Assembly: GCF_024706985.1 (NCBI RefSeq)
Contig: NZ_JAMCCX010000072.1
Span: 62,001 to 126,000, forward strand
From: Alicyclobacillus sp. SP_1
Lineage (GTDB): Bacteria; Bacillota; Bacilli; Alicyclobacillales; Alicyclobacillaceae
Direction of reading: 5' to 3'
DNA: 64,000 nucleotides
Part shown: one piece after another, positions 23,610 through 60,369 of the stretch
Layout: the number at the start of each line of letters is the position of its first letter
How positions within the stretch are numbered: the first letter of the stretch is position 1
The notes under the pieces: generated by a model
Told to the model about the DNA's origin: nothing
Databases searched by the model: none
The model's input: the letters and a program-made list of their open reading frames with translations, nothing else
Position numbers and translations under genes: made by a program

Positions 23610-24053
23610 TCACGAGAGAGGCAATTCAAACTGCTTTTGTAGTGCTTGTCGATTCACAATCATGTCGGCCAAAGTATACTTGTCCAGAACCTCAAGATAG
23701 GCCCGTAGCGCTTCCGAGAATACTCCTTTCAGACGACACATCGGATTGAGAATGCAAAAACCGTTCTCTTCATCGAAACACTCGACCAAATTCCAGTTAT
23801 CTTCCGTATGGCGAATCACCTCGCCAATGCAAATTTCCTCAGGTGGCTTCGCAAGTCGAATACCGCCAGAGCGGCCGCGAACCGTTTTCAAATAACCGAG
23901 CTTGCCAAGCTCGTGAACCACTTTGACCAGATGGTGATTAGAAATGCGGTAAACTCGCGAAATGGATTCAATATTGGATAATTCGTTATCGGGCTGCAGC
24001 GCCACGTAAAGAAGAATCCGCAGAGAATAGTCACTAAATCGCGTCAGATTCAT
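23610..24053 (-). CDS. nsrR: NsrR-like nitric oxide-sensing repressor (Rrf2 family)
   Basis: A 147-residue Rrf2 regulator. The winged helix covers about residues 2-60 (LTRFSDYSLRILLYVAL, ISNHHLVKVVHELGKLGYL) and the sensor loop has three cysteines in CFDEENGFCILNPMC, the arrangement that binds the [Fe-S] cluster in NsrR. ATG 24053 has GGAGGG upstream. The gene is divergent from the flavohemoglobin gene, whose promoter region holds a near-consensus NsrR site. NO should inactivate the cluster and release repression. Confidence 0.88.
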   Translation of the reverse strand: MNLTRFSDYSLRILLYVALQPDNELSNIESISRVYRISNHHLVKVVHELGKLGYLKTVRGRSGGIRLAKPPEEICIGEVIRHTEDNWNLVECFDEENGFCILNPMCRLKGVFSEALRAYLEVLDKYTLADMIVNRQALQKQFELPLS

Positions 24054-24154
24054 GAATAACCCTCCAAGTGTCCGAGACATTCTACCCGTGTCTAACAACA
24101 TCCTAACCGAGAAACCGAAGATCAGATGGAGAAAGTGTCAAATTATCTCCACAA

Positions 24155-24263: not shown

Positions 24264-25493
24264 ATGCCCTTGTTGTCCAAACAGACCATCGAAATTATCC
24301 GCTCCACCGTCCCTGTTCTCGAGATTCACGGAACAGAAATCACGACCAGGTTTTACGCTCGGCTCTTTGAAAACACCCCCGAGTTATTGAATGTCTTTAA
24401 TCATAGCAATCAACAGGAAGGTCGCCAACAGACAGCGCTGGCAAACGCAGTTTACGCAGCTGCCGTACACATTGATCGATTGAATGACATCATGCCCACC
24501 GTCAAGCAAATTGCTCAAAAACATAGAGGTATCGGAGTGAAGCCAGAACATTATCCGATTGTCGGTGAGAATCTGCTCGCAGCAATGTCTGAAGTTTTAG
24601 GGGATGCAGCCACACCGGAAATCCTTCAAGCTTGGTCAGAGGCCTATGGTGAAATTGCAGGGGCGTTCATTTCCGTCGAGCAGCAAATGTATGAAGAAGT
24701 CGCCAATAAACCAGGAGGATGGATTGGGTACCGGCGATTCATTGTCGATAAAAAGGTGGTCGAAAGCGACGTTATCACGTCCTTTTACCTACGTCCAGAG
24801 GATGGCTCCGCCATTGTCTCTTACGAACCGGGGCAGTACCTGACTTTCTCGATTCACATTCCTGGCGAAAAATACGCACATGTTCGACACTACAGCCTAT
24901 CGGACGTACCAAACCCAAATCACTACCGCATCTCCGTCAAACGAGAAGACACCATACCCAATCAGCCACCTGGGAAAGTGTCCACTTATCTCCATGCACA
25001 CGTTAACGAGGGTGACGTCTTGGAAGTGAGTGCTCCCGCAGGCGACTTTATCCTGTCAGACACAGACACCATTCGGCCGCTCGTCTTCCTCAGTGGTGGA
25101 GTTGGTATGACGCCCATTTTGAGTATGCTGAAGTCGGCATTGCACAACAACGCAACGCGCGACATCACCTACATTCACGCAGCCATCAACGGAGATGTGC
25201 ACGCCTTCCAAGAAGAAGTGGAGACACTCGCGAAATCACATCCCAACCTGACCTACAAGGTTGTCTACGAAACTCCCACAGAAAACGACCAAGTGCAGCG
25301 TAAATTCGATAAATCCGGATTTATTGACCTACCTTGGTTACAGTCTGTACTGGCCGGACCCGAGGCGGACTTTTACTTCTGTGGACCTGCGCCCTTCATG
25401 CACGCCATGAATCGCTCTTTGCGCGATTTTGGAGTTGCGGAGCAAGACATTCACTATGAAGTTTTTGGCCCTCAACTGTCTTTCACCGCTTAA
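24264..25493 (+). CDS. hmp: flavohemoglobin, nitric oxide dioxygenase
   Basis: A 409-residue flavohemoglobin, normal length. Globin domain at residues 1-140, with the proximal heme His in QKHRGIGVKPEHY; FAD domain about 150-260 with HVRHYSLSDVPNPNHYRISV (FAD-binding RxYS within) and NAD domain with LSGGVGMTPILSML and a C-terminal FYFCGPAPFMHAMN. It converts NO and O2 to nitrate in the cytoplasm. TAGGAGGT precedes the ATG. It is regulated by the divergent nsrR and complements the nitrate respiration genes that follow. Confidence 0.96.
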   Translation: MPLLSKQTIEIIRSTVPVLEIHGTEITTRFYARLFENTPELLNVFNHSNQQEGRQQTALANAVYAAAVHIDRLNDIMPTVKQIAQKHRGIGVKPEHYPIVGENLLAAMSEVLGDAATPEILQAWSEAYGEIAGAFISVEQQMYEEVANKPGGWIGYRRFIVDKKVVESDVITSFYLRPEDGSAIVSYEPGQYLTFSIHIPGEKYAHVRHYSLSDVPNPNHYRISVKREDTIPNQPPGKVSTYLHAHVNEGDVLEVSAPAGDFILSDTDTIRPLVFLSGGVGMTPILSMLKSALHNNATRDITYIHAAINGDVHAFQEEVETLAKSHPNLTYKVVYETPTENDQVQRKFDKSGFIDLPWLQSVLAGPEADFYFCGPAPFMHAMNRSLRDFGVAEQDIHYEVFGPQLSFTA

Positions 25494-25515: not shown

Positions 25516-25552
25516 AAACTGACCGGCGACTCTCTCAGTCGTCGGTCAGTTT
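25516..25552. terminator. bidirectional terminator overlapping the crp/fnr stop codon
   Basis: A 16-bp stem (25516-25531 and 25537-25552, one G-U pair) with loop CTCTC. The minus-strand transcript ends in a long T-rich run opposite the A-rich 25494-25515. The right arm starts inside the TGA stop of the crp/fnr-like gene (25535-25537), so the gene's last codons form the hairpin. It ends the nar operon and probably hmp too. Confidence 0.85.
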
Positions 25553-26212
25553 GTCAAAATGAAAAGTCCACTGGTCAGTCCTCCCGGTAATGACCCCTTC
25601 GCGGCGCAATTCGCTCCACACGCGATTGACGGACTCACGCGTGACGCCAATCATCTGAGCCATCTCAGAATGCGTCAAAGGAAGTTGGATGTGCGCTTGG
25701 TTTCCACAAATCTCTCCATGTTCCTCCGCCAAATGTTTCAACAACGCGATAACACGATGGCGCGAATCGTAGAGCGAAAGCTCTTGAATTTTCAACTGGA
25801 GACGAGAAATTTGAGTACTCATCACAGCCATGACTTTATGCGTAATGTCTTCATGAGCTTCTAAAAAAGCATCGAACTGAGTACAGCGAATCGACAAGAG
25901 TGTAGTCGCATCCATCGTTTGAGCGGTCCCAGGATACGGGACCCGACTAAAAAAGCCAATGTGCGGGAACATCTCGCCAACGCCAAGTATGTTAACGATA
26001 TGCTGACGTCCGTCTTTATTGACTTGAAAAACCTTCACCAATCCTCGAAGAATGAAGAAAACAAATTCGCGCTCGTGGCCTTCCATAAAAATCGTATATC
26101 CTCGGTCAAATGTATGCATGGTCGCCATGCTCTGAATTTCCGTCAGTTGCTCCGTCGTAAAGTCTTGAAAGATATTTACTTTTCTCAAACTATCGAGCTG
26201 AACCTGCGACAC
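25535..26212 (-). CDS. Crp/Fnr family regulator, last gene of the nar operon
   Basis: A 225-residue CRP/FNR protein: cyclic-nucleotide-like beta barrel (residues 15-120), dimer helix (THKVMAVMSTQISRLQLKIQ) and a helix-turn-helix with recognition segment GVTRESVNRVWSELRREG. The RExxxR pattern predicts TGTGA half-sites, as found upstream. It has only two cysteines (in IRCTQ and EICGNQ), not the Fe-S clusters of E. coli or B. subtilis Fnr, so the oxygen signal is unclear. It lies 27 bp after narI. Confidence 0.9.
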   Translation of the reverse strand: MSQVQLDSLRKVNIFQDFTTEQLTEIQSMATMHTFDRGYTIFMEGHEREFVFFILRGLVKVFQVNKDGRQHIVNILGVGEMFPHIGFFSRVPYPGTAQTMDATTLLSIRCTQFDAFLEAHEDITHKVMAVMSTQISRLQLKIQELSLYDSRHRVIALLKHLAEEHGEICGNQAHIQLPLTHSEMAQMIGVTRESVNRVWSELRREGVITGRTDQWTFHFDKLTDD

Positions 26213-26239: not shown

Positions 26240-26944
26240 TTAACTGCGCTCTCTTGGTGGGCGATGTGCATAGCGAACACGGGACCGATACTGCATAGGT
26301 GCCCTTGTGATATAGATGATGGGTGCACTGTACATATGTATCAACCGCGTAAACGGCGCTACTCCAAACAGGACGAACGACGCGATGATGTGGATTTGCA
26401 GTAACAAAGGAACATGAACCATCAGTTCAATTTTCGGTTGCAATGTAAACAGACTACGCACCCACGGACCGACCGTCGTTCGATATTCGTAGGGACCATT
26501 GACGGTGTCCCAAATGGTCGTCATGGCCTCCCCTAAAGCAATCACAATCCAAAGCAACGCATCCGCGAGAAAGTCCGACGGACTGGAGTTCCTACGCACG
26601 CGGGCGTTAAAAATCCTCCGCAGCAAAAGAATCGTCATCCCGATTAAGGTAACCAAACCGAAGAATCCACCAAAGAGTTCCGCGTTCGTGTGGTACATCG
26701 TATTCGATACACCAAGCCATTGGTATACTTGAATCGGGATTAGCAATCCCATAATGTGACCAATAACCACAAAGAGTAGTCCCCAGTGAAACAGCATACT
26801 ACCAATCCGCAACCAACGTCGTTCTAACAACTCACTGGATTTGGATGTCCAACTCATCGGGTGATACGCATAGCGGTACATCGACCCAAACACAATCGAA
26901 CCTAAACAGATGTACGGAAAAACCCCCCACCACAGCATTGCCAT
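26240..26944 (-). CDS. narI: respiratory nitrate reductase gamma subunit
   Basis: A 234-residue membrane cytochrome b with five helices. Heme-ligand histidines are visible in FHWGLLFVVIGHIMGLL and in HVPLLLQIHIIASFVLF with RLIHMYSAP. It takes electrons from quinol at the membrane and passes them to NarH. AAAGGAGG is before ATG 26944. It is separated from narJ by 62 bp, and the Crp/Fnr gene follows. Confidence 0.95.
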   Translation of the reverse strand: MAMLWWGVFPYICLGSIVFGSMYRYAYHPMSWTSKSSELLERRWLRIGSMLFHWGLLFVVIGHIMGLLIPIQVYQWLGVSNTMYHTNAELFGGFFGLVTLIGMTILLLRRIFNARVRRNSSPSDFLADALLWIVIALGEAMTTIWDTVNGPYEYRTTVGPWVRSLFTLQPKIELMVHVPLLLQIHIIASFVLFGVAPFTRLIHMYSAPIIYITRAPMQYRSRVRYAHRPPRERS

Positions 26945-27006: not shown

Positions 27007-27705
27007 TCAGGTACGACTGCGACTGTCAGATTCATAGTGAAGAGGATACGGCATGTCCGCTGCTGCATCGTCTTCGCCGCCGGACCGACTATCAAAATCG
27101 GCCGATGGCTCCGCCCGCGCTAAAATCGTCTCATCGGCTGGCACTAAGACGGTTCGCAGTGCGGAAAAGATGAATTCATAGACGCCGTCTCCTGCCAGCC
27201 GTTGTTCCATCAGGCGGCAAAGATTAGAAATGCGCTGTTCCAACGCAAGTACTGTTTGGGTTTGCCGAGAAGCCTCGACCATACCTAAAAACTCCAAGAG
27301 TTGCGGCAAATAATCGGATAATTGCTCCTCCGCAGGCATCCATCCCGCCGCGCGAAAAGTCTGAGCCAATTCCAGAAGAGCAGGACCGCGCTGGCGCCCG
27401 TCGCCGTATTCGTGCGCAGTTAAATGCAAAGTGGTCTCTTGCGACAAATCAAACACTGACACATAGTGCTCTTCCAAATCGACAGGAGATAAACCAAGCA
27501 TCGCGCCCATAGCACGGGCCAATGGACTGTCCATTGGCATCCCGACTTCCTCCAGAGCATCGTAACTGTCTCGCAACTGACGAAAAAAATCTGTTTCGCC
27601 CGGGTAGGAGAGCATACGCGCTGCGGAAAAAAGTGTGATCGTCCGCGGCGATAATGGGATTTTTCGCCCATCTTCGTACAGCGTGCGTTCCGTCTGCTCG
27701 CTCAT
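27007..27705 (-). CDS. narJ: nitrate reductase molybdenum-cofactor assembly chaperone
   Basis: A 232-residue NarJ/TorD-type chaperone with characteristic LSYPGETDFF and HYVSVFDLSQETTLHLTAHEYGDGRQRG (core DLSQETTLHLT, EYGD). It binds NarG before cofactor insertion and is not part of the final enzyme. ATG 27705 overlaps the narH stop (TGATG). The acidic C-terminal tail is longer than needed and is probably flexible. Confidence 0.93.
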   Translation of the reverse strand: MSEQTERTLYEDGRKIPLSPRTITLFSAARMLSYPGETDFFRQLRDSYDALEEVGMPMDSPLARAMGAMLGLSPVDLEEHYVSVFDLSQETTLHLTAHEYGDGRQRGPALLELAQTFRAAGWMPAEEQLSDYLPQLLEFLGMVEASRQTQTVLALEQRISNLCRLMEQRLAGDGVYEFIFSALRTVLVPADETILARAEPSADFDSRSGGEDDAAADMPYPLHYESDSRSRT

Positions 27706-29189
27706 CAGCTGTCCCACCCGATCAATGCACCAGGTCCCTCCGGCGGCGCCAATTCCTCGATGCTACACGCGCCTTGCTGATACGGCAACATATTGTCCAT
27801 TTCACGCTGTCCTGTCGGAATGACAAAACGCTCATTGTACTTTGCTACACCAAACAGCCGGGCCATGCGCTCAAGTTCGCTTGCGGTCAAGCCACTCGCT
27901 TGGAGTAAGGCATTCTCTGTCATCCCACCCACAGTCTTGTTGCGCATATGCATGCGCATGGCCGTCAGGCGAAGCAATACCCCGCGAATCACTTCCACAT
28001 CTCCTGCCGTCAAAATCGATGCCAAGTACTCCATTGGAATACGCATATCAGAAATAGCGGCGAGATATCCTTGGTCCGTCAGGTGTTCCTCGTTACTCAG
28101 TTGATTCATAATGGGACTTAGCGGAGGCACATACCAAACCATAGGGAGAGTTCTGAATTCCGGATGTAAGGGAAGAGCAACTTTGTATTCTACCGCCATC
28201 TGATAAACGGGAGACTGCTGGGCAGCATCCAACCAGGCATCATTGATACCCTGTTCTCGAGCACATTTGATGACCTCTGGGTCAAACGGATCGAGAAATA
28301 AATCCAATTGCGCTTTGTAGAGATTATCGGTTTGCGGTTCCGAGGCCGCTGCTCGTACCCGGTCAGCATCATAGAGCAGCACACCTAAATACCGAATTCT
28401 CCCGACGCATGTTTCAGAACAGATGGTCGGCAGTCCGGCCTCTATTCGCGGATAACAAAAGGTACATTTTTCCGCTTTATGCGTGTTCCAGTTGAAATAC
28501 ACTTTTTTGTAGGGACACGAACTTACACAGAAACGCCACCCCCTGCACGCCTCCTGATCGACTAAAACAATACCGTCTTCATCTCGCTTATACAGGGCAC
28601 CCGACGGACACGCGGCCACACAGGCTGGATTCAGACAATGCTCGCAAATGCGTGGCAAGTACATCATAAACGTCTGCTCATACTCAAACGCCACGTGACT
28701 TTGAACGTTTCTAAAATTAGGATCCGTCGGGGCAATCTGTTTTCCTCCAGCGAGATCGTCGTCCCAATTAGGGCCCCACACAGGATTGTCCATATTTTTC
28801 CCAGTCAAGCTTGATTTCGGTCGGGCCACAGGCTGATGCTTGCGGTGGGGACTCTCCAGAAGATTTCCGTAGTCATATGTCCATGGTTCGTAATAGTCGT
28901 CAATCACTGGCATTTCTGCTGGACCGAAAATGTTCGACAGGCGCTTTGCAGCGCCGCCTGTTTTGAGCATCAAACGCCCATTTTTGAGCACAAACCCTCC
29001 TTGATACTTGTCTTGATCCTCCCATAATTTCGGATAACCTGGGCCTGGCCTGGTTTCGACGTTGTTAAACCACATGTATTCGGCCCCAGGACGACTCGTC
29101 CACGTATTCTTACACGTGACACTGCAGGTGTGACAGCCAATGCACTTGTCGAGATTCATTACCATGGCAATTTGTGCTTTAATCTTCAA
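27705..29189 (-). CDS. narH: respiratory nitrate reductase beta subunit, iron-sulfur
   Basis: A 494-residue NarH with four cysteine clusters: CIGCHTCSVTCKNTW near the N-terminus, CEHCLNPACVAACPSGAL, CRGWRFCVSSCPYKK with KCTFCYPRIE, and CSETCVGRIRYLG. The Trp in CRGW is the usual [3Fe-4S] ligand variant. It carries electrons from NarI to NarG on the cytoplasmic face. It overlaps narG by 11 bp. Confidence 0.97.
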   Translation of the reverse strand: MKIKAQIAMVMNLDKCIGCHTCSVTCKNTWTSRPGAEYMWFNNVETRPGPGYPKLWEDQDKYQGGFVLKNGRLMLKTGGAAKRLSNIFGPAEMPVIDDYYEPWTYDYGNLLESPHRKHQPVARPKSSLTGKNMDNPVWGPNWDDDLAGGKQIAPTDPNFRNVQSHVAFEYEQTFMMYLPRICEHCLNPACVAACPSGALYKRDEDGIVLVDQEACRGWRFCVSSCPYKKVYFNWNTHKAEKCTFCYPRIEAGLPTICSETCVGRIRYLGVLLYDADRVRAAASEPQTDNLYKAQLDLFLDPFDPEVIKCAREQGINDAWLDAAQQSPVYQMAVEYKVALPLHPEFRTLPMVWYVPPLSPIMNQLSNEEHLTDQGYLAAISDMRIPMEYLASILTAGDVEVIRGVLLRLTAMRMHMRNKTVGGMTENALLQASGLTASELERMARLFGVAKYNERFVIPTGQREMDNMLPYQQGACSIEELAPPEGPGALIGWDS

Positions 29190-32100
29190 GCCAACGCACC
29201 TCCTTGAGCGGTCGAATCACTGCCATAACATCTCTTTGGTGCCCAGTTGGCCCATAATAATTGAAGCCAAAGGACAGTTGGGCATAACCCCCTATCATGT
29301 GCGTAGGCTTCGGAATGATTCTCGTCACACTGTTGTGTGTTCCGCCTCTGTCTTTTGTTATCTGCGTTCCCGGAACTCCGACTGTGCGGTCTTGCGCGTG
29401 ATACATCATTGAAATACCTTCCGGAATCCGATACGACACAACCGCACGAGCGGCAATGACACCATTGCGGTTGTACACTTCCACCCAGTCGTTATCGCGC
29501 ACACCAATTTTTTCAGCATCTTGCTCTGACATCCAGATGGTCTGACCGCCACGAAATAAGCTCAACATGCGCGGAGTATCCGCATACGTTGAATGAATTC
29601 CCCACTTTTGATGCGGCGTCAGATATCGTACGGTGACCGTCTTTCCCTCCATTGGCACACCCTCATCCGAGCGAAACGGAGTGAGTTCAAGAGGTGGGCG
29701 ATAGACTGGCAAGGACTCGCCAAATTCCAACATCATTTCATGTTCCAAATAAAAAGTCTGACGGCCTGTCAACGTTCTCCAGGGAATCTTGTATTCCACG
29801 TTCGAGGTAAACGGCGAATAGCGTCTGTCTGCACCCTCCAGTCCGCTCCATACAGGAGTCGCCAAAGTAAATTGAGGCTGGGCACTGATGGTCTGGAGCG
29901 TTTGCGCAATGGACCGATGATGATCCGCTATTTCTGACAAATGGAGTCCTGTCGTTTTCTCCAACGCTGTCCACTCTTCATGGGCTCTCTCTCCGTTGGT
30001 CGCACCCGATAAAGTGAGAATGGCCTCAACCACATTTTTATCCATTTCCAGTGTAGGACGTCCGTTTCCAATTCCCTCTTCGGAATACGTGCCTACTCTT
30101 TGAATCAGTTCCTGATATGCAGATTTTCCAGGAATCGTAATCCCCTTCGTTGTCAACGCAGACTCCGCCAAGGGTCCAAGAGTCACAAACTGCTCGTACA
30201 AATGTGGATAGTCCCGCTTCACAATCGCAAAATTCGGCATCGTCAGCCCCGGTTTGGGTGGACATTCACCTCGCCGCCAGTCTTTGACTTTCCCATACGG
30301 CTGAGCGATTTCTCCCTTCGCATCGTGTCCGAGCGGAGACATCACTAAGTCTTCTTGCAAAGGTAGATATTCTTTCGCCAAGCATGTAAAGGTTTCCGCG
30401 AGCTTCCGAAAAGCAGCCCAGTCGCTGCGCGTCTCCCAAGGAGGAGAGATGGCCGGATTAAATGGGTGTACGTAAGGATGCATGTCCGTAGTCGATACGT
30501 CGTATTTCTCATACCACGTGGCGGCGGGTAAAATGACGTCTGAGTATAGCGCGGTCGAGGTCATGCGAAAGTCGACATCCACGAGCAAGTCGAGCTTTCC
30601 AATGGGCGCATCTTCCGGGACATCGATAGTTTCCGGCTTCCAGGACGACTTTTCATTGGCCAACACATGTCCGTCACTACCGACCATGTGTTTAATAAAG
30701 TACTCGTGACCCTTCCCACTGGAACCTAGTAAATTCGAGCGCCAGACAAAAAATACTCGAGGGAAATTTTGTGGATGATCCGGCGCGTCAACGGCAAACT
30801 GTATCTCGCCGCTCGCCAAGCCGTCAGCTACTCTCTGCACAACTTCCGCATCCGTTTTTGCACCGGCCGCACGAGCCTCTTGGACAACCCTCAAAGGATT
30901 TTGGCGCAATTGCGGATAAGAAGGCTGCCAACCCAGTCGAACAGACAGTGCGGCCATATCCGCTGGATGCATGCTTTGAAAGCGCGAAGAAAACGGTGTG
31001 CCAATTGACTCGGCGTGGAGTTCCTCGTAGCGAAACTGGTCGGACACAAAATAGAAGAACAGCGTTCCTTGCATTTGACGCGGAGGCTTAACCCAGTCGA
31101 GACCAAACGCGACCGTAGACCACCCCTCCATCGGCCGTACTTTTTCTTGTCCGACATAGTGCGCCCATCCACCTCCGTTCACCCCTTCACATCCGGTCAG
31201 AAGAACTAAATTGATGATGCTTCGATAGATGAGGTCACTATGGTACCAATGGTTTGTCCCCGCCCCAAGAGCAATCATGGACTTACCTCGTGTCAACTCC
31301 GCATTTTCCGCAAATTCTCTTGCAACGCGAATTGCATCCTCACGGCGAACGCCTGTAATGGCTTCTTGCCAAGCCGGTGTGCACGGCATCGGATCATCAT
31401 AATTCGCAGGATATTCGCCAGCTAGTCCCCGTCCAACGCCACACTGCCCTAGGAGCAAGTCAAAAACCGTCGTGACAACCACAGTTTCGCCATGATTCAG
31501 CCGTAGTCGCTTGCAGGGAACATGGCGTCGCATCAACTGAGCCTGTCGATGGCCGTCCAAAAAATGAGGAAATTCGACGGGTACTGTATCTTCAGCGCCT
31601 TCGAGCAAGCTGAGTACCGGACGGATGGTGCTTCCTGCCGCATCCTCTAAATTCAAATTCCATTGACCCGATTCATCCCATCGATAACCGATGCTTCCAA
31701 TTGGAACGGCCGGACTGTTGCGAAGCTCGTCCCAAACTACGGGTTTCCACTCGGCGTTCGATTCCACAGAACCCAGGTCGCTTGCTCGCAGTAGGCGGTC
31801 TGGCCGGAACGTGCCATCCGATTCTTGAAGCGTGACCAAAAACGGTAAATCAGTGTAACGCTGTACGTAGTCCAAAAAATACGGGGTCGATTTGTCGACA
31901 TAAAATTCCTTCAAGATGACGTGTGTCATGGCCATGGCCAGCGCAGCATCGGTACCCGCTTTCGCTGGTAACCACTGATCTGCAAACTTAATGTACTCTG
32001 AATAATCCGGGCTGACGCCAATCACTTTCGTTCCGTTGTAGCGTGCTTCCACCATGAAATGAGCGTCGGGAGTCCGTGTCATCGGTAAATTCGTACCCCA

Positions 32101-32859
32101 AATAATAAAATACTTGGCATTGTACCAATCGCCACTTTCCGGAACATCCGTTTGTTCACCCCAAATTTGCGGAGATGCAGGTGGCAAGTCAGCGTACCAG
32201 TCATAGAAGCTCAGAACGGACCCGCCTATCAACGACAAATAGCGCGATCCCCCCGCATAACTCACTTGGGACATGGCGGGAATCGGACTAAATCCCGCAA
32301 TTCGGTCTGGTCCATATTCTAAAATGGTGTAAATGTTGGATGCCGCAATGATTTCGCTCACTTCATCCCAGCTTGCGCGCAAGAGACCCCCCTTACCACG
32401 GCTGCGCACATACTGAGCACGTTTGTCCGAGTCCGTCACAATGCGCCGCCAAGCCTCAACCGGATGGCTTGTCTCGCGCTCTTTTCGCCAAAGAGACAAC
32501 AGTTCTTTGCGAACATATGGGTACTTCACGCGCATCGGACTATATGTATACCACGAAAAGCTGGCTCCGCGCGGACATCCACGCGGCTCATATTCTGGGA
32601 AGTCATGTCCGAGGGACGGATAGTCAATCTGCTGCGTCTCCCACGTGATAATGCCGTCCTTGACGTAAATTTGCCAACTACAGGACCCAGTGCAGTTCAC
32701 TCCATGCGTCGAACGGACAATCCTGTCATGCTGCCAACGCTCTCGATACATAGATTCCCAATTTCGAGACCGTCGGCTCAGTTCGGTCCAACCGTCATTG
32801 ATTCGAGGACCTCTGCGTAAGTACCAAATGCGTTTCCAGTATGGGATTTGTTCTGTCAA
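29179..32859 (-). CDS. narG: respiratory nitrate reductase alpha subunit, molybdoenzyme
   Basis: A 1226-residue molybdo-bis-MGD enzyme, full length. N-terminal HGVNCTGSCSWQIYVKDG supplies the His/Cys [4Fe-4S] ligands typical of NarG. MALYRIGG-like cofactor regions appear, such as WGTNLPMTRTPDAHFMVEAR and SVLSFYDWYADLPP. There is no twin-arginine signal, so the active site faces the cytoplasm, as in Bacillus NarG. It reduces nitrate to nitrite with quinol electrons. It follows four small genes of the same operon. Confidence 0.97.
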   Translation of the reverse strand: MTEQIPYWKRIWYLRRGPRINDGWTELSRRSRNWESMYRERWQHDRIVRSTHGVNCTGSCSWQIYVKDGIITWETQQIDYPSLGHDFPEYEPRGCPRGASFSWYTYSPMRVKYPYVRKELLSLWRKERETSHPVEAWRRIVTDSDKRAQYVRSRGKGGLLRASWDEVSEIIAASNIYTILEYGPDRIAGFSPIPAMSQVSYAGGSRYLSLIGGSVLSFYDWYADLPPASPQIWGEQTDVPESGDWYNAKYFIIWGTNLPMTRTPDAHFMVEARYNGTKVIGVSPDYSEYIKFADQWLPAKAGTDAALAMAMTHVILKEFYVDKSTPYFLDYVQRYTDLPFLVTLQESDGTFRPDRLLRASDLGSVESNAEWKPVVWDELRNSPAVPIGSIGYRWDESGQWNLNLEDAAGSTIRPVLSLLEGAEDTVPVEFPHFLDGHRQAQLMRRHVPCKRLRLNHGETVVVTTVFDLLLGQCGVGRGLAGEYPANYDDPMPCTPAWQEAITGVRREDAIRVAREFAENAELTRGKSMIALGAGTNHWYHSDLIYRSIINLVLLTGCEGVNGGGWAHYVGQEKVRPMEGWSTVAFGLDWVKPPRQMQGTLFFYFVSDQFRYEELHAESIGTPFSSRFQSMHPADMAALSVRLGWQPSYPQLRQNPLRVVQEARAAGAKTDAEVVQRVADGLASGEIQFAVDAPDHPQNFPRVFFVWRSNLLGSSGKGHEYFIKHMVGSDGHVLANEKSSWKPETIDVPEDAPIGKLDLLVDVDFRMTSTALYSDVILPAATWYEKYDVSTTDMHPYVHPFNPAISPPWETRSDWAAFRKLAETFTCLAKEYLPLQEDLVMSPLGHDAKGEIAQPYGKVKDWRRGECPPKPGLTMPNFAIVKRDYPHLYEQFVTLGPLAESALTTKGITIPGKSAYQELIQRVGTYSEEGIGNGRPTLEMDKNVVEAILTLSGATNGERAHEEWTALEKTTGLHLSEIADHHRSIAQTLQTISAQPQFTLATPVWSGLEGADRRYSPFTSNVEYKIPWRTLTGRQTFYLEHEMMLEFGESLPVYRPPLELTPFRSDEGVPMEGKTVTVRYLTPHQKWGIHSTYADTPRMLSLFRGGQTIWMSEQDAEKIGVRDNDWVEVYNRNGVIAARAVVSYRIPEGISMMYHAQDRTVGVPGTQITKDRGGTHNSVTRIIPKPTHMIGGYAQLSFGFNYYGPTGHQRDVMAVIRPLKEVRWLED

Positions 32860-32871
32860 TGTCTGCTCCCC

Positions 32872-33129
32872 CTATTCCTGTCGCAATGGATTGAACTCTT
32901 GACCAACAAGTCGAAACGCTCCGTCTCCGGCAGCTAGTTCCGCCAAGAAAACACTCGCCTTGGGTGCATTAGCCGCGACAAGAATGAGTCGCTGTAAAAC
33001 CTCCGGCTTGCGAATTGCCTCTATTTTCTCCATGACCTCCGAAGGAATAGGGCCAAACTTCATTTCCAACAGCGCAATCAAATCAGCGAGATCGACCATC
33101 AGCATTGAGTTCACAACATGCTCGTCCAA
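32872..33129 (-). CDS. unknown 85-residue protein in nar operon
   Basis: I do not recognise a proven family. The segment LIALLEMKFGPIPSEVMEKIEAI with LQRLILVAANAPKASVFLAEL faintly resembles small helical domains attached to Rpn/DUF4351 proteins. TTG 33129 is preceded by GGGGAGAGGG; ATG at 33105 is the alternative. It ends 12 bp before narG, so it belongs to the operon. A cytoplasmic assembly or regulatory role is only a guess. Confidence 0.6.
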   Translation of the reverse strand: MDEHVVNSMLMVDLADLIALLEMKFGPIPSEVMEKIEAIRKPEVLQRLILVAANAPKASVFLAELAAGDGAFRLVGQEFNPLRQE

Positions 33130-33166: not shown

Positions 33167-33478
33167 TCAGAATTTTTGTTTCATCCCCTTCCGATAATCC
33201 TTGACTAAGCGATCCTTCACATCCAAAACGGTTTTGTCCAGGTACTCATGGAACGCAGGCGGTAAAAAACCTGTCTCGACCATTTCCCACTCACCATGCT
33301 CGAACGCATAGTCTGCATGATATGTAAAGTCACCGCCATAGGACATGACCAGAATGTGACCCCCTCGCTCATCGACGACTTGTCCGTCAACGTCATACGG
33401 GTTCAATCCATGAGCCGATAATTTATCCATGACTTGTTGATACAAGGCGGGACTTGCAAAGCGGAGCGGTTTATCCAT
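33167..33478 (-). CDS. unknown 103-residue protein in nar operon
   Basis: A mostly polar, aromatic-rich protein (HGLNPYDVDGQVVDERGG, SYGGDFTYHADYAFEHGE) with no transmembrane segment. Not recognised. ATG 33478 has AAGGAGAGGTGAT before it, and the upstream hemerythrin-like gene stops one base before. It is one of a series of tightly packed genes between the SLAC1-like channel and narG. Confidence 0.65.
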   Translation of the reverse strand: MDKPLRFASPALYQQVMDKLSAHGLNPYDVDGQVVDERGGHILVMSYGGDFTYHADYAFEHGEWEMVETGFLPPAFHEYLDKTVLDVKDRLVKDYRKGMKQKF

Positions 33479-33479
33479 A

Positions 33480-33932
33480 TCACCTCTCCTTTGCCAGAAT
33501 GTCGGCAAGCGGCAGACCCGATTGAAACAAAAACTTCTCTTCATCTCGTCCGTGAATGGCGTTTATCAGCAACATCGCTTCAAATCGCTCCACCACGCCA
33601 TCCGACCATCCGTGTGTAGCCAAAATACCTTCAATTTCTGTTACCAGAGTGCGCATTAAATCGTGATCTCTCGTGAGTTGGGCGATTCTCCTCGCCACGC
33701 GCGATTCGGCTCGTTCGATTTCTTGATACAAACCTTCCTCCTCCGAATCCGCATGACGGAGAGTACGCGTTTCCCAATGTTCCAAGAGCACGGACGCAAG
33801 ATGCAGCGCTTCATCCACCTGCCCTTCATGTGCCTTTTTGCGGAGAATACGCGTCCACTGCTCAGCTTCATCGAACGCCGCTTGGTGAATAGCGTGGTGC
33901 GCATCAAACTGAGCCAAACCTTTTCCCGACAT
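33480..33932 (-). CDS. hemerythrin-like HHE domain protein
   Basis: A 150-residue protein with the ligand pattern of an HHE cation-binding domain: DAHHAIH, LRHADSEEEGLY, TRDHDLM and NAIHGRDEEKFLF. It probably binds a di-iron centre. The start is ATG 33932, after GGAAGGAG; the longer frame back to 34154 overlaps the channel gene. In a nitrate/NO region it could sense O2 or NO, or repair Fe-S clusters (compare RIC/YtfE), but that is inference. Confidence 0.75.
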   Translation of the reverse strand: MSGKGLAQFDAHHAIHQAAFDEAEQWTRILRKKAHEGQVDEALHLASVLLEHWETRTLRHADSEEEGLYQEIERAESRVARRIAQLTRDHDLMRTLVTEIEGILATHGWSDGVVERFEAMLLINAIHGRDEEKFLFQSGLPLADILAKER

Positions 33933-33964: not shown

Positions 33965-35002
33965 TTATTTGGCCTCTTGGGACCGCACTTTCAAAACATC
34001 GTGAGCAAACCAGTCGACCAGCACCAAACACCAACAAACTAACGCAAGAATATAGAAGTATTTCACAGCATAATGCAGGAAGTGAAGTCCTGGGAAACTG
34101 CTCATCAGTGCCAATGCCGCCGAGTACATGCCTAGTGGGAAGATGATACTCCATAAACTAGGGTCGAACGGTTCAATCCGTTTGTACATTCGATATTTCC
34201 AAATGCCCATAATGACCAAGAGGGGAATCCACCAAGTTCCCCATGTCCACATGGTGACTGTAAAAGCAACCACAAAGGGATGGACTGCGGCCAGAAACTT
34301 TGTTGCAGCACCTGGATTCGCGAGCCGCACACCCGCAACTGTCGTAATCGCCATAGCCCCCATATTAATCCAATACGGAGGACTAAGGTCTGCAGGATGA
34401 ACCGCTTTGAAGAAAAACCGATACATGATAATCACGATGAAAATGAGGTATAGCAAGATGCCAAACGACCAGAACGCATAGGCGACAAACAACAGGGCTT
34501 CACTCATAAAGTGCAGATGAACCGCCAAAATCGCTGCAACGATGGAGAGCGACTCTGTTCCCACGGTCGCAATCAGCCACGCGCCATTAACGGACTCGTG
34601 AACCGCCCGCTCGTTGTGAAAGACAAGCATCGCGAAGATAAAGTACAAGAGTCCGCACCAAACGAGAAAAGCGATACAGCCCAAAATCAAGACGGGCCAA
34701 AGATATCCTGAAAGACCTAGGCGCGTTGCCAAGATGTCGGTTCCGGCAACAAATGTAAAGTAGCCAAAGACACGCAATGGATTAAACATATCCGCCTTGA
34801 CTTGCGCAGGAAAACGGAAAATTCGGGTTATGTAGAGGACAATCAGCCACAAGTAAAATACGCTCGCAATGATAAACAACGCGTCAGACAAATCGGTCCA
34901 ATGAACCAAAAATCCAACGACAGAGAGAATGCCAGTGGCCATGACCAAAGCAAAATATCCAGGATAGAGGTTACTCAAACTCCAAGTAGCCGACTTGTCC
35001 AA
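33965..35002 (-). CDS. SLAC1/TehA (TDT) family anion channel or transporter
   Basis: A 345-residue protein with ten membrane helices and the TDT signature (NLYPGYFALVMATGILSVVGF at the N-terminus, and FRFPAQVKADM). Family members include plant SLAC1, which conducts nitrate and chloride, and TehA. The start is TTG 35002, seven bases after GAGGAGG. It is the first gene of the nar operon and stands where NarK nitrate/nitrite carriers normally are. It is a good candidate for nitrate uptake or nitrite release. Confidence 0.85.
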   Translation of the reverse strand: MDKSATWSLSNLYPGYFALVMATGILSVVGFLVHWTDLSDALFIIASVFYLWLIVLYITRIFRFPAQVKADMFNPLRVFGYFTFVAGTDILATRLGLSGYLWPVLILGCIAFLVWCGLLYFIFAMLVFHNERAVHESVNGAWLIATVGTESLSIVAAILAVHLHFMSEALLFVAYAFWSFGILLYLIFIVIIMYRFFFKAVHPADLSPPYWINMGAMAITTVAGVRLANPGAATKFLAAVHPFVVAFTVTMWTWGTWWIPLLVIMGIWKYRMYKRIEPFDPSLWSIIFPLGMYSAALALMSSFPGLHFLHYAVKYFYILALVCWCLVLVDWFAHDVLKVRSQEAK

Positions 35003-35075: not shown

Positions 35076-35118
35076 ATCTTACCAATTTAAGGATTGCATA
35101 GCTGTGATATATGTCACA
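35076..35118 (-). promoter_or_regulatory. CRP/FNR-type promoter of the nar operon
   Basis: TGTGATATATGTCACA (35103-35118) is a full TGTGA-N6-TCACA site. On the minus strand a -10 hexamer TAAGAT lies at 35076-35081, with 21 bp between. This places the site centre about 41.5 bp before the predicted transcript start, the class II activation layout. The operon's own Crp/Fnr protein is the likely activator. Confidence 0.8.
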
Positions 35119-35240: not shown

Positions 35241-35570
35241 TTACTCGACCGGTGGCGCACTATCGGCTTGGCTGACGACCAAAAGTACGATGCTCTTTTC
35301 CAGGGCATCCAGCGCATGAATTTCTTCAGGTTCCATCAAAACCATCTCCAACTCTTTGAGTTCCATACTCTTGTCTCCAGCTTCCAAGCGAATGCGGCCA
35401 CTAAGTAAAATGACGGCTACAGGGGCATGAGCATGATGCTTCGGCAACGAAGCACCTGGAAGCAAAGAGAGTTGAACAAACTTTGTCTGTACGTGCCCTC
35501 TCTTCTCGCGCTCTAAAATACTTTCCACTTTGGCATGGCGAAATTGCAAAGAATATTTTTCCATATTCAT
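35241..35570 (-). CDS. small cupin-domain protein
   Basis: A 109-residue single-cupin protein with KHHAHAPVAVILLSGRIRLE, HAHAP being the probable metal-binding motif, and GDKSMELKELEMVLMEPEE. It could be a metal-binding sensor or enzyme; substrate unknown. The start is set at ATG 35570 beside GAGGAAAGG, though two other ATGs lie within nine bases. A CRP/FNR site and -10 lie upstream, so it is probably co-regulated with nitrate respiration. Confidence 0.75.
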   Translation of the reverse strand: MNMEKYSLQFRHAKVESILEREKRGHVQTKFVQLSLLPGASLPKHHAHAPVAVILLSGRIRLEAGDKSMELKELEMVLMEPEEIHALDALEKSIVLLVVSQADSAPPVE

Positions 35571-35674
35571 CATCCTTTCCTCATACAGGTACATTCAAAG
35601 TAGGAACGACCAACAAGCCACAACAGCGCAAGTCTCTACGATGACAGGACAGAGCAAAATGCCATTCTGTCATG

Positions 35675-35717
35675 ATTATGCCAAGATGAGAGGTATCGCG
35701 ATGTGATCAAACTCACA
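35675..35717 (-). promoter_or_regulatory. CRP/FNR-type promoter of the cupin gene
   Basis: TGTGATCAAACTCACA (35702-35717) is a full TGTGA-N6-TCACA site. The minus-strand -10 CATAAT lies at 35675-35680, with a 21-bp gap identical to that at the nar promoter. The layout fits class II activation of the cupin gene. Confidence 0.78.
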
Positions 35718-35843: not shown

Positions 35844-36959
35844 ATGATGGATGATGTCTTGCTGAAACTCGGGCAAAATGTTTCCCATTTGATGGAGGTC
35901 AACCGAGCCATTGATGAAGCCATCATTTTGGCTATCACCAACCAACAAGGCATGATTACCTTTGCCAACAAAAAATTCTGTGACATCTCCCAATACAGCC
36001 AACAAGAACTCATTGGGCAGAATCATCGGATCGTCAATTCTGGATTTCATCCACCGGAGTTTTTCAAAGACCTCTGGCGCACCATCGGTCAAGGGCGAAT
36101 CTGGAAAGGCGAAATCCGAAATCGGGCAAAAAATGGCGACTTGTACTGGGTTGACACCACCATCGTTCCCTGCCTCGACGAGAAGGGAAAACCGTATCAA
36201 TATATTGCTTTTCGTGTCGACATCACGGCGAGAAAGCACGTGGAAGAGCAGATGCGTCGCCTTGACCAACTGCAGATTGCTGGACAAATCTCCGCCAGCA
36301 TTGCGCATGAGATACGAAACCCGCTTGCGGCCATCCAGTGGACTTTGCTCTCGTTGTCCAACGATGCTGCCGACCGCGAACATCAACTGTCTCTGGTTCA
36401 GGCGGAATTGACTAGAATTGATGCCATCTTGACGGAATTTCTCACCCTGTCGAAAAAGAGAGAGTCTGTCTTCTTCGAAATTGACTTGCCAGACTTAGTT
36501 TGCTGCAAGACGGTCGACATCGTTGCGGCGCAAGCCCGGCAGCAAGGGATTACTCTCGACGTCGAGGTGCATTCGGTCTCCGGAAAGGTCTGGGGCGATG
36601 AACACCAACTTCGTCAGGTCTTTCTCAATCTCATGAAGAATGCCTTGGAGTCGATGGAAGTCGGTGGACGGCTGACCGTTCGAGCAGAGCAAACTCACGA
36701 CTCTTCCAACCGCCCGTGCATCTCCATTGCGATAGCGGACAGTGGATGCGGTATGACGGCTTGGCAACTCTCGAATTTAGAGCGGGCCTTTTTCACGACC
36801 AAACCGGATGGAACTGGTTTAGGACTCACCGTATGCCACCAGATTCTGCATTCCCACCAAGGTGCCTTAAACTTTCGCAGTCAAGTCGGAGAAGGGACCA
36901 CTGCTACGGTCACCCTTCCGCTTTACGAATCTTCTGAGGGGACAGGCGGCAATGTGTAG
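35844..36959 (+). CDS. cytoplasmic PAS-domain histidine kinase
   Basis: A 371-residue kinase without membrane segments. PAS domain at residues about 20-130 (ITNQQGMITFANKKFCDISQYS), HisKA helix with SIAHEIRNPLAAIQW near residue 155, and HATPase_c about 250-365 (NLMKNALESMEVGGR, IADSGCGM, GTGLGLTVCH). A start nearby could be ATG 35847. It lies divergent from the cupin gene and is convergent with a NarL-type regulator with a 37-bp overlap. The stimulus, perhaps redox or NO, is unknown. Confidence 0.9.
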   Translation: MMDDVLLKLGQNVSHLMEVNRAIDEAIILAITNQQGMITFANKKFCDISQYSQQELIGQNHRIVNSGFHPPEFFKDLWRTIGQGRIWKGEIRNRAKNGDLYWVDTTIVPCLDEKGKPYQYIAFRVDITARKHVEEQMRRLDQLQIAGQISASIAHEIRNPLAAIQWTLLSLSNDAADREHQLSLVQAELTRIDAILTEFLTLSKKRESVFFEIDLPDLVCCKTVDIVAAQARQQGITLDVEVHSVSGKVWGDEHQLRQVFLNLMKNALESMEVGGRLTVRAEQTHDSSNRPCISIAIADSGCGMTAWQLSNLERAFFTTKPDGTGLGLTVCHQILHSHQGALNFRSQVGEGTTATVTLPLYESSEGTGGNV

Positions 36960-37618
36960 CCTTCCCGCACCGCGTAGGCTGCGGCCTGTACTCGATTAGC
37001 CAGATGCAATTTCTCCAAAATATTTCTAACGTGATTGCGGACGGTATTTTCGCTAATAAACAGTGCCTTTGCGATGTGCTGGTTGGATGCTCCTATGCTC
37101 AGTTGGCGCAATACATCCTGCTCTCGTTGTGTCAAAGGTTCGATGCTCTCCGGAGAATGGACTTTTCGCTGGGGCGCTAGCTCCGTCAAGATGCGCAGCG
37201 CCAATTGTTCCGGAATAACAGGCTCTTTTCGATAGACGCGTTGAATGCTCTCTAAGACGTGGTCCGGACTGGAGGTCTTCAACACATACCCCAACGCACC
37301 CGCTTGAATCGCATCAAACAGAGATTCCTCTGTGTCGGAGGCCGTTAACATAAGTATTCCTATTTCAGGGAATTCTCGGTGAATGACTTTGGTTGCTGTT
37401 AATCCGTCCCATACCGGCATGTGAATATCCATGAGGACGACATCCAGATTCCTTGCCGAGTTGCAGTGTTCAAACGCTTGTTGTCCGTTAGCCACATCTC
37501 CAACAACGTCAATCCAAGGCACCCGGGTCAGGATGGCTTTCACGCCTTGACGAAACAATTCATGGTCATCGGCAAGGAGAACACGAATGCGCGTCTCGCC
37601 CATTTTTTCGTCTGGCAC
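36923..37618 (-). CDS. NarL/FixJ family response regulator
   Basis: A 231-residue regulator. Receiver domain residues 5-120: VLLADDHELFRQG acidic pocket, Asp in VVLMDIHMPVWDG, and Thr/Lys in MLTASDTEES and YVLKTSSPD. LuxR-type helix-turn-helix at 160-220 (LTQREQDVLRQLSIGASNQHIAKAL, cut here to two parts, and TVRNHVRNILEKL). GTG 37618 has GGAGG eight bases upstream. It probably works with the convergent kinase. Confidence 0.9.
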   Translation of the reverse strand: MPDEKMGETRIRVLLADDHELFRQGVKAILTRVPWIDVVGDVANGQQAFEHCNSARNLDVVLMDIHMPVWDGLTATKVIHREFPEIGILMLTASDTEESLFDAIQAGALGYVLKTSSPDHVLESIQRVYRKEPVIPEQLALRILTELAPQRKVHSPESIEPLTQREQDVLRQLSIGASNQHIAKALFISENTVRNHVRNILEKLHLANRVQAAAYAVREGYTLPPVPSEDS

Positions 37619-37748
37619 CCTGCCCACCTCCTTTGGTTCCGCCTACCCTGGTCCACGCGAACGATGCAGCACCAGAGACCACACCACAGGCATCCCGGGC
37701 TGTCTGAAGGGTAGTGGTAGCGCGTCCCATGACAAACTCCTACAACGA

Positions 37749-58602: not shown

Positions 58603-60291
58603 CTAGTTCGCGCTGCGTAGGCTGTCGAGAAACGACTGAATCAGCGTCCCACCCTTCGGACTGCCAAGACCCGTGCAGCAATTCCAACCAGGTCCTGCCG
58701 AATAGACATCACTTGTCCCCTGAATGTCGTTGTTCCCGTGAGTAATCTCCCGAAAAGCGTGGATGGCCGGCGATATGCCATACAAAAACGGATTCATGAA
58801 GCCCGTCAGATGACCCGTCATCTGTTGAGTCAACACCAGCAGTCCGGCCCACAACGGCGCGACAGCGCTGGTTCCGCCGACAACCATCGACTGTCCATCG
58901 ACCAAAATTTGATATCCCGTCTCCGGGTCAGCATTTCCCGCAACATCGGGTACCCCTCGGCCGCGCACGCCACCTGGGTTCGCCGACGGAGGCACCCCCG
59001 CACCTTCCTGCCAACTCGGCACGGCAAAGACGCTGCTGACGCCTCCCCCTGTAGCGCCACCCATCAGACCATCGTTCCAGACCGTCTCGCTGTCAATGAC
59101 GCTACCGGACCCAACCAAGCGCGTTCCCCCGCAGGCCAGAACATGCGGCGAGGATGCAGGAAAGTCCACGTGGTATCTGCCATCGTCGACTCCATCGGTC
59201 GATCCGCTATCGCCAGCGGCCACACAGACACTGACGCCGAGCAGTCGCCCATCCGCTAAGGCGGAGTTCATCGCTTGCAAGCTCGACATGCTCCACGAGT
59301 CCTCCGGACCGCCCCAGCTGATGGAAAGTACCGTCGGGCGATACGTCGTGTCGTGCATGGCCATCGTGATCGCGTTGAGAAATCCGGCATCCGTATTCGG
59401 AGTGAAATAGACGACCACTTGGACACCAGGGGCGACGGAGGCAACCACTTCGATATCGAGATTGACTTCGCCGTCCGGGCCGTTGGGACTGCCTGGTTGA
59501 TTGACTCCTCCATCCACCGTCACCGTTGCCACTCTTGGCATGGGTAGGCCGAGTGCCGAAAAATAGTCTTTGAGATTACTCTCCGTATAGCCTCCGCCCA
59601 GTTCAATAATGCCGACGCACTGGTCGGAACAGGGCACGTCGTTCGGATATTGATAGAGCTCTGCGACTTGAGGCGGCGTGTACGACAGAGCTAACGCAGT
59701 GGCCGCAGCTCGCGAGTGCCATCCTTCCTCGCTCGTCACACCCGCGTTTCGCATCCGCAAATGTGGCTTAGCTTGCGGACGGGAGTCAAGTCCAAGCACG
59801 GCGCTTATCCGGTCACTAAGCGACGTTGGCAAAGACACAGAGCCCGTATAGCCCCGATACGTGCCGTCGGGATGGTCATAGTTGCGCAATTCGAGTAAAA
59901 ACGCGCGATTGAAATTGCCGACCGTGCCGGCGAGGACCACCGTGCCTGCAGCTCTCAGAACGCGCGTCACCACAAGACCACACACCTCGGCATAGCCTGT
60001 GACCGCCGCCACGTCCTCATCGGTCGCGCCATACTTCCGGGCAAAGGACTCCCGCGAGAGAAAAGTTCGCTCAGAAATCGGCAGCGAGTCCAACGTCTCG
60101 AGGTATCCAGAAAGTTCAGAAGATGCTGCGCGGCGTAAAACCATCGTGACCTGTATCTCTTCATGGTCATCGGTTGGACCGACGTCGACTGCACCGGGTA
60201 ACGCCAAGCGGCTACTCATGGGAAGAATGCGCATCGTCTGTCTGAAGGAATCGCCGTCGGGCAGAGAAGACTGACTCTTCAAGAATATCAT
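58603..60291 (-). CDS. kumamolisin-like S53 serine-carboxyl peptidase
   Basis: A 562-residue sedolisin. The N-terminal prodomain (about 1-175) precedes the catalytic domain: GEVNLDIEVVAS holds the catalytic Glu and Asp, AAGDSGSTDG the oxyanion Asp, and GGTSAVAPLW the catalytic Ser at residue 475. C-terminal NDIQGTS and WNCCTGLGSP form the calcium site. It works at acid pH, probably outside the cell, yet no signal peptide is evident. ATG 60291 is too near GGAG; TTG 60282 is a good alternative start. Confidence 0.92.
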   Translation of the reverse strand: MIFLKSQSSLPDGDSFRQTMRILPMSSRLALPGAVDVGPTDDHEEIQVTMVLRRAASSELSGYLETLDSLPISERTFLSRESFARKYGATDEDVAAVTGYAEVCGLVVTRVLRAAGTVVLAGTVGNFNRAFLLELRNYDHPDGTYRGYTGSVSLPTSLSDRISAVLGLDSRPQAKPHLRMRNAGVTSEEGWHSRAAATALALSYTPPQVAELYQYPNDVPCSDQCVGIIELGGGYTESNLKDYFSALGLPMPRVATVTVDGGVNQPGSPNGPDGEVNLDIEVVASVAPGVQVVVYFTPNTDAGFLNAITMAMHDTTYRPTVLSISWGGPEDSWSMSSLQAMNSALADGRLLGVSVCVAAGDSGSTDGVDDGRYHVDFPASSPHVLACGGTRLVGSGSVIDSETVWNDGLMGGATGGGVSSVFAVPSWQEGAGVPPSANPGGVRGRGVPDVAGNADPETGYQILVDGQSMVVGGTSAVAPLWAGLLVLTQQMTGHLTGFMNPFLYGISPAIHAFREITHGNNDIQGTSDVYSAGPGWNCCTGLGSPKGGTLIQSFLDSLRSAN

Positions 60292-60369
60292 TCTCCTTTT
60301 CTGCACGGGAGCACGAGCGGCCATGCTTAGTTTCCCAACATCATAACACAAACTATTTCGAATCTATTT

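Follow-up and report, generated by a model that had tools for sequence, protein, structure and literature searches.

The window, by which we mean the whole 64-kb stretch of DNA that was analysed, carries a run of genes on one strand in the order SLAC1-hemerythrin-U103-U85-narG-narH-narJ-narI-crp/fnr (Table 1). From the SLAC1 gene through the crp/fnr gene, the gaps range from -11 to 62 bp, with NarJ taken at an internal position. The four nar genes are contiguous and each scores above its NCBIfam cut-off, which identifies the run as a respiratory nar operon. We placed the start of this operon at the SLAC1 gene, whose TTG start codon is preceded by GAGGAGG. An earlier note on this DNA had placed a SLAC1-family protein first in the nar operon, and the tight same-strand run, together with the match of the ORF to Pfam SLAC1 (PF03595, E 5.5e-43), bears this out.

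Table 1. Genes and sites in and around the nar operon of the window
Feature	Position	Strand	Observations
Rrf2-family regulator, NsrR-like	23610..24101	(-)	Divergent from hmp; PF02082; best NCBIfam match NsrR, 143.6 bits, below cut-off 182
Hmp, NO-inducible flavohemoprotein, NO detoxification	24264..25493	(+)	NF009805, 566.9 bits, cut-off 432
Crp/Fnr-family regulator	25535..26212	(-)	Last gene of the run; PF00027 and PF13545; 27-bp gap
narI, gamma subunit	26240..26944	(-)	TIGR00351, 201.8 bits, cut-off 106
narJ, assembly chaperone	27007..27717	(-)	TIGR00684, 86.7 bits, cut-off 59
narH, beta subunit	27705..29189	(-)	TIGR01660, 772.6 bits, cut-off 524
narG, respiratory nitrate reductase alpha subunit	29179..32859	(-)	TIGR01580, 1759 bits, cut-off 1084
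U85	32872..33129	(-)	85 aa; no family match
U103	33167..33478	(-)	103 aa; no Pfam or NCBIfam match
Hemerythrin (HHE) protein	33480..33932	(-)	150 aa; PF01814, 26.1-27.5 bits, cut-off 25.3; 32 bp after SLAC1
SLAC1-family anion channel/permease gene	33965..35002	(-)	345 aa; heads the nar operon
TGTGAN6TCACA palindrome (Fnr/Crp-type)	35103..35118		Exact match; 100 bp upstream of SLAC1 start
Small cupin-like ORF upstream of SLAC1	35241..35594	(-)	Cupin_2, 22.8 bits, below cut-off 27.2
Second TGTGAN6TCACA palindrome	35702..35717		Exact match; upstream of the cupin-like ORF

The small genes between SLAC1 and narG have counterparts in related genomes. A hemerythrin-domain protein accompanies narG, with either NarK or SLAC1 as the transporter, in the window (33480-33932) and at loci L101-L104, L107, L108, L112, L114, L116-L118 and L120; it may handle NO or oxygen. 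Weak homologues of U103 were found by blastp in the nar clusters of L101, L102 and L105. By eye, small ORFs resembling U85 lie directly before narG in relatives, and small ORFs with a DLLAIL..RFG-like stretch lie between hemerythrin and narG in L101, L105 and L108.

The surroundings of the operon hold several regulators. The NsrR-like Rrf2 protein and Hmp beside it fit a cell exposed to NO derived from nitrite. Proteins 53% identical to the Crp/Fnr regulator occur near nar in L116 and L119. The cupin-like ORF stops 238 bp short of the SLAC1 start codon, and the gap between them contains the palindrome TGTGATATATGTCACA. Exact TGTGAN6TCACA sites occur twice in the 64-kb window, against a mean of 0.15 in shuffled sequences, none of which (0 of 100) had at least two. 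This form is what we take to be the box of Bacillus Fnr; the sites are candidate targets of the operon's own Crp/Fnr regulator, and the operon is presumably under Fnr/Crp-type control. Scans of the window for promoters and terminators returned no more than in shuffles. Just upstream, at 35844-37627, a PAS histidine kinase and a response regulator lie on opposite strands with overlapping 3' ends. The best NCBIfam match of the response regulator is NarL (154.9 bits, below the cut-off of 250), and the pair is a candidate nitrate sensor.

The first gene of the operon encodes a SLAC1-family protein

The PF03595 profile matches residues 12-329 of the ORF with 147.8 bits (cut-off 27.9) and is covered over nearly its whole length (2-328 of 331), which places the product in the SLAC1 family; no other Pfam family matched. 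The nearest NCBIfam model is that of the tellurite-resistance/dicarboxylate (TDT) family, TIGR00816 (TehA), and the ORF scores 100.7 bits against its cut-off of 237.25, hence outside this subfamily. Since a sequence search of the PDB with the protein gave nothing or chance matches, a comparison of folds was needed. The AlphaFold2 model (mean pLDDT 84.2) was compared with the PDB using Foldseek, and all 24 matches at E <= 0.001 were SLAC1, SLAH or TehA entries, with TM scores of 0.57-0.74 by query length and sequence identities of 15-18%. The best of them was plant SLAC1 (7en0_A, E 3.1e-6), and 3m71 and 4ycr were among the TehA entries. Phe288 aligns with F262 of the E. coli and H. influenzae TehA proteins, that is with the column of the gate phenylalanine, and every one of the 13 subfamily rows in the alignment carries this residue. 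By profile, fold and gate phenylalanine the product is thus a member of the SLAC1 family, outside the curated TDT/TehA subfamily.

PF03595 includes transporters of several anions. The protein could accordingly serve as a stress valve whose substrate is a different anion or a volatile acid. Sulfite (compare Ssu1), a dicarboxylate (compare Mae1), chloride and tellurite-type resistance all come into question; such a valve would be switched on alongside anaerobic respiration and pass neither nitrate nor nitrite. The variety of substrates in the family and the nature of the nearest NCBIfam model, sub-threshold as it is, speak for such a valve, which we nevertheless consider improbable in view of its genomic company among relatives (see below).

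No recognisable NarK is encoded in the genome

The nar operon contains neither a NarK-type ORF nor any MFS ORF, in agreement with the earlier note. That note had proposed a search for narK elsewhere, and we ran it on all 105 contigs of the genome (3.4 Mb, 99.98% complete). The best match to the NarK model TIGR00886 scored 69.7 bits against a cut-off of 311.7, so that no convincing NarK was recognised. Weak matches (E <= 1) fell at 17 MFS-type places. The best of these, a 423-aa ORF at L004, was rejected as a hidden NarK, as it scores higher to D-galactonate and phosphoglycerate carriers. Across 61 related genomes, the TIGR00886 matches set off from the rest have 139-266 bits, none above the cut-off either; NarK calls therefore rest on the score gap and on position beside narG.

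Other ways across the membrane were sought in the whole genome as well. FocA/NirC (PF01226) had no matches, and matches to the nitrate ABC transporter ATPase (TIGR01184) all remained below threshold (best 167 of 291.8 bits), for which reason an ABC transporter of this type was rejected. For nitrite consumption, no copper nitrite reductase NirK (TIGR02376) was found. The sole PF01077 (NIR_SIR) match was a 565-aa ORF that starts, by eye, like a corrin C-methyltransferase, and it was rejected as a NirB-like sink. The ORF at L206 483-2991 (contig C83 of G000), which resembles a corrin C-methyltransferase fused to a NIR_SIR domain, might be mistaken for a nitrite reductase. With no recognised NirK or NirB sink, nitrite probably has to leave the cell.

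These results bear on whether the SLAC1 protein exports nitrite only, while nitrate enters non-specifically or by a carrier that escapes recognition, such as a divergent MFS or ABC transporter. We regard this as possible, if rather unlikely. The 17 weak MFS matches offer room for such a carrier; on the other hand, no candidate stands out among them, the best one fits other substrates better, and the nar operon has no MFS gene of its own.

Orthologues accompany nitrate reductase in related genomes

A close orthologue was found in 13 of the 61 related genomes, amounting to 14 full-length copies 44-68% identical to the protein of the window, not counting fragments of one more in G009. NarG is present in all 13 of these genomes, compared with 13 of the 48 without an orthologue (Fisher test, 1.6e-6). 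In addition, 10 of the 14 full-length copies are found no more than 20 kb from narG. A further 29 SLAC1 matches occur in the 61 relatives, nine of them in genomes with NarG, and none of these nine paralogues is that close to narG (p 0.0016).

Most informative is G006, which has two nar operons, one headed by NarK and the other by SLAC1. The order on contig C8 is NarK-hemerythrin-narGHJI; on contig C2, SLAC1 takes the slot of NarK and the order is SLAC1-hemerythrin-U103-U85-narGHJI. G004 likewise has NarK at the head of its nar operon. G024 has a tandem pair of nar operons, each with its own SLAC1 gene, and no NarK; at this locus (L101, 2090-19901) both operons are complete and contain hemerythrin, and the two SLAC1 copies are 47% and 69% identical to that of the window. 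Elsewhere the position varies: the SLAC1 gene follows narI in G021 and G027, sits between a pair of hemerythrin and small ORF and narG in G016, and is divergent at the nar cluster in G009. G009 also retains, on contig C44 (L105, 7496-9485), the remnant of a second nar/SLAC1 cluster with hemerythrin, a U103-like ORF, a small ORF, a 132-aa start of narG and a SLAC1 fragment. Finally, G022 and G052 each have NarK next to SLAC1 at a single nar cluster, as if the two were complementary, an arrangement that favours a SLAC1 protein exporting nitrite alone.

The remaining four of the 14 copies are located apart from nar. In G037 and G049 the gene is beside a cluster that by eye resembles that of a quinol oxidase, and in G002 and G004 it is elsewhere. 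That these four left the nar cluster and persist is what would be expected of a passenger, linked to nar by inheritance or hitch-hiking and with no role in nitrate respiration. Such a passenger is very improbable, given that every related genome with an orthologue also has NarG and that the linkage recurs across phyla in several arrangements (upstream, downstream and divergent).

SLAC1 is not a general substitute for NarK

Among the related genomes with NarG, eight have SLAC1 without NarK, five have both, 10 have NarK alone and three have neither (p 0.11). The last three are G028 (99% complete), G050 (81%) and G054 (60%). In G028 (L119), narGHJI is present, the frame of narG contains an in-frame TAG, and the nar operon is perhaps decaying.

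We also used a sample of 299 genomes of the class, 82 of them with NarG. NarG occurs in 14 of the 16 genomes of this sample that have the SLAC1 protein, compared with 68 of the 283 that do not (p 4e-7). At the thresholds used, only six of the 82 NarG genomes lack NarK, and the genome of the window is one of them. The SLAC1 protein is found in three of these six, as opposed to 11 of the 76 NarG genomes with NarK (p 0.059). G076 and G131 lack both proteins at the same thresholds, and G207 and G300 have a SLAC1 relative without NarG. The absence of NarK is thus unusual in NarG genomes, and the SLAC1 protein leans toward genomes in which it is absent; as a measure of avoidance of NarK, neither the test in the relatives nor that in the class sample is significant, and the species are not independent.

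The earlier note had described the SLAC1 protein as standing in the place of NarK. This description is supported by the slot exchange in G006 and by the genome of the window, which has no recognisable NarK. It does not extend to all bearers of the gene: as five of the 13 related genomes with an orthologue also have NarK, the SLAC1 protein is not a simple NarK substitute everywhere.

The linkage to nar recurs in distant phyla

To cover more distant bacteria, we scanned GTDB species genomes and used the best 80 of 563 relatives. The examined flanks of 26 of these 80 contain narG or narH. Of these 26 loci, 14 have the SLAC1 gene in the orientation of a nar gene and at most 1 kb from it, and nine also have NarK. 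The 26 belong to five phyla (Bacillota, Chloroflexota, Myxococcota, Pseudomonadota and Ignavibacteriota). On a quick tree, proximity to nar is scattered with 17 changes, of which 14 are forced by well-supported branches, and none of 500 shuffles gave so low a number. The 17 changes may reflect repeated gain, repeated loss, or contigs that end within the flanks.

The other 54 of the best 80 relatives have no narG or narH in the examined flanks, many being on short contigs. Taken at face value, this majority outside nar clusters argues for a valve serving another anion. Yet the neighbours of these genes suggest no alternative task: among 152 neighbouring ORFs (150 aligned, some of which may be shadow frames), 146 were scanned with Pfam and no theme was shared, Rieske proteins being the commonest with six of 146. 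The return of the nar linkage in five phyla is a second point against such a valve, and against a passenger.

Proposed role in nitrate respiration

As is established for its enzyme class, NarGHI reduces nitrate on the inner (cytoplasmic) side of the membrane; therefore, nitrite accumulates inside the cell and nitrate must enter it. The SLAC1 protein is a good candidate for the entry of nitrate or the exit of nitrite, because its gene heads the nar operon, NarK was not found and its relatives adjoin nar in many unrelated bacteria. A distinct nitrate/nitrite route through it, as the earlier note had suggested, is plausible on this genomic evidence. The reading that we favour, by a modest degree, is that the product of the gene is an anion permease with the SLAC1 fold, belonging to a subfamily of its own and made together with respiratory nitrate reductase, which passes nitrate and nitrite and has nitrite exit as its main part. 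Both the substrates and the direction of transport are what we infer for this protein. Weighing against this reading are the varied substrates of the family, the 54 distant relatives and four close orthologues apart from nar, the company of NarK in five of 13 related genomes and at nine of 26 nar loci, the NarG genomes with neither protein (G028, G076, G131), the two SLAC1 bearers that lack NarG (G207, G300), and an avoidance of NarK that falls short of significance.

The main job of the pore would be to release nitrite, driven both by the nitrite gradient and by the membrane potential. In the genome of the window, where NarK was not found, the same pore would probably also admit nitrate, either through coupled flows or through mass action, with NarG using the nitrate up. 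An uncoupled pore at 120 mV, inside negative, would hold internal nitrate roughly a hundredfold below the outside and would drive nitrite out (Nernst, 60 mV per decade). Nitrate entry might then be possible at high external nitrate, with coupled flows, or at a low or reversed potential. Because a passive anion channel under an inside-negative potential opposes nitrate uptake and favours exit, nitrite exit is the better-supported half of the permease reading. The same energetics lend weight to an exporter of nitrite only.

Acidophiles have a low or reversed membrane potential. At 58603-60351 the window encodes a peptidase with a Pro-kumamolisin domain, a type associated with acid-loving bacteria; this peptidase and the family of the strain do no more than hint at acidophily. 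One could extend the permease reading to a second, channel-type answer to nitrate respiration, in which a gated SLAC1-fold pore would alone carry nitrate in and nitrite out in the genome of the window and in some bacteria of several phyla, perhaps helped by a low or reversed potential in acid-loving members. We hold this extension to be an unlikely one.

Comparison with known systems

To our knowledge, current explanations of nitrate and nitrite passage across the membrane of nitrate-respiring bacteria rest almost entirely on NarK and NirC. The NarK nitrate/nitrite carriers of the MFS share with the SLAC1 protein the head slot of nar operons (G006, G004) and are unrelated to it in fold and family. 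The ions would probably be the same; the SLAC1 protein is probably a channel or uniporter, unlike the 12-helix antiporter or symporter that is NarK. The FocA/NirC formate-nitrite channels offer a comparison in the way of working, as small nitrite channels that serve anaerobic metabolism, although they belong to another family (PF01226), one absent from the genome of the window.

In the literature searched, which included few subscription journals, we found no description of a SLAC1-family gene in nar operons. The available text of a study of two denitrifying Bacillus species links nar clusters to NarK and NirC and contains neither 'tellurite' nor 'anion channel' (Heylen and Keltjens 2012, PMC3475470). 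In Rodionov et al. 2005, putative transporters of NsrR regulons homologous to tehB and narK were proposed to excrete nitrite (PMC1274295); that proposal concerns enterobacterial NsrR regulons, names tehB and does not have nar operons as its subject. The fold and the operon are both known, and their recurrent pairing was not found described in these sources. If our reading is true, annotations such as 'tellurite resistance' or 'dicarboxylate transporter' hide a gene of the nitrogen cycle in many phyla.

TehA of H. influenzae and E. coli has the same fold (3m71) and the same phenylalanine column. In H. influenzae, F262 corresponds to the pore-blocking F450 of AtSLAC1, and its change to alanine raised conductance (PMC10645844). 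For E. coli tehA, control by the NO regulator NsrR has been suggested on conflicting data (PMC5320621). The likeness to TehA stops at family and fold: identity to E. coli TehA is 19%, no tehB lies beside the SLAC1 gene, and the score falls short of the TIGR00816 cut-off. The term 'SLAC1/TehA-type' used in the earlier note is therefore apt for the SLAC1 family and fold and loose in its TehA half.

With the plant SLAC1/SLAH S-type channels the protein shares the fold (7en0_A) and the gate phenylalanine (F450 of AtSLAC1). Plant SLAC1 carries chloride and nitrate (PMC10645844), from which the earlier note had argued for nitrate passage. Taken alone this argument is weak, as the identity in the structure alignment is 16% and the family moves other anions. 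The bacterial protein, at 345 aa in all, also lacks the long cytosolic regulatory ends of the plant channel. If the proposed role is true, a channel family known from plant guard cells acquires a physiological function in bacteria, one open to direct testing. Plant SLAC1 serves in stomatal signalling, whereas its relative in the window belongs to a bacterial respiration operon.
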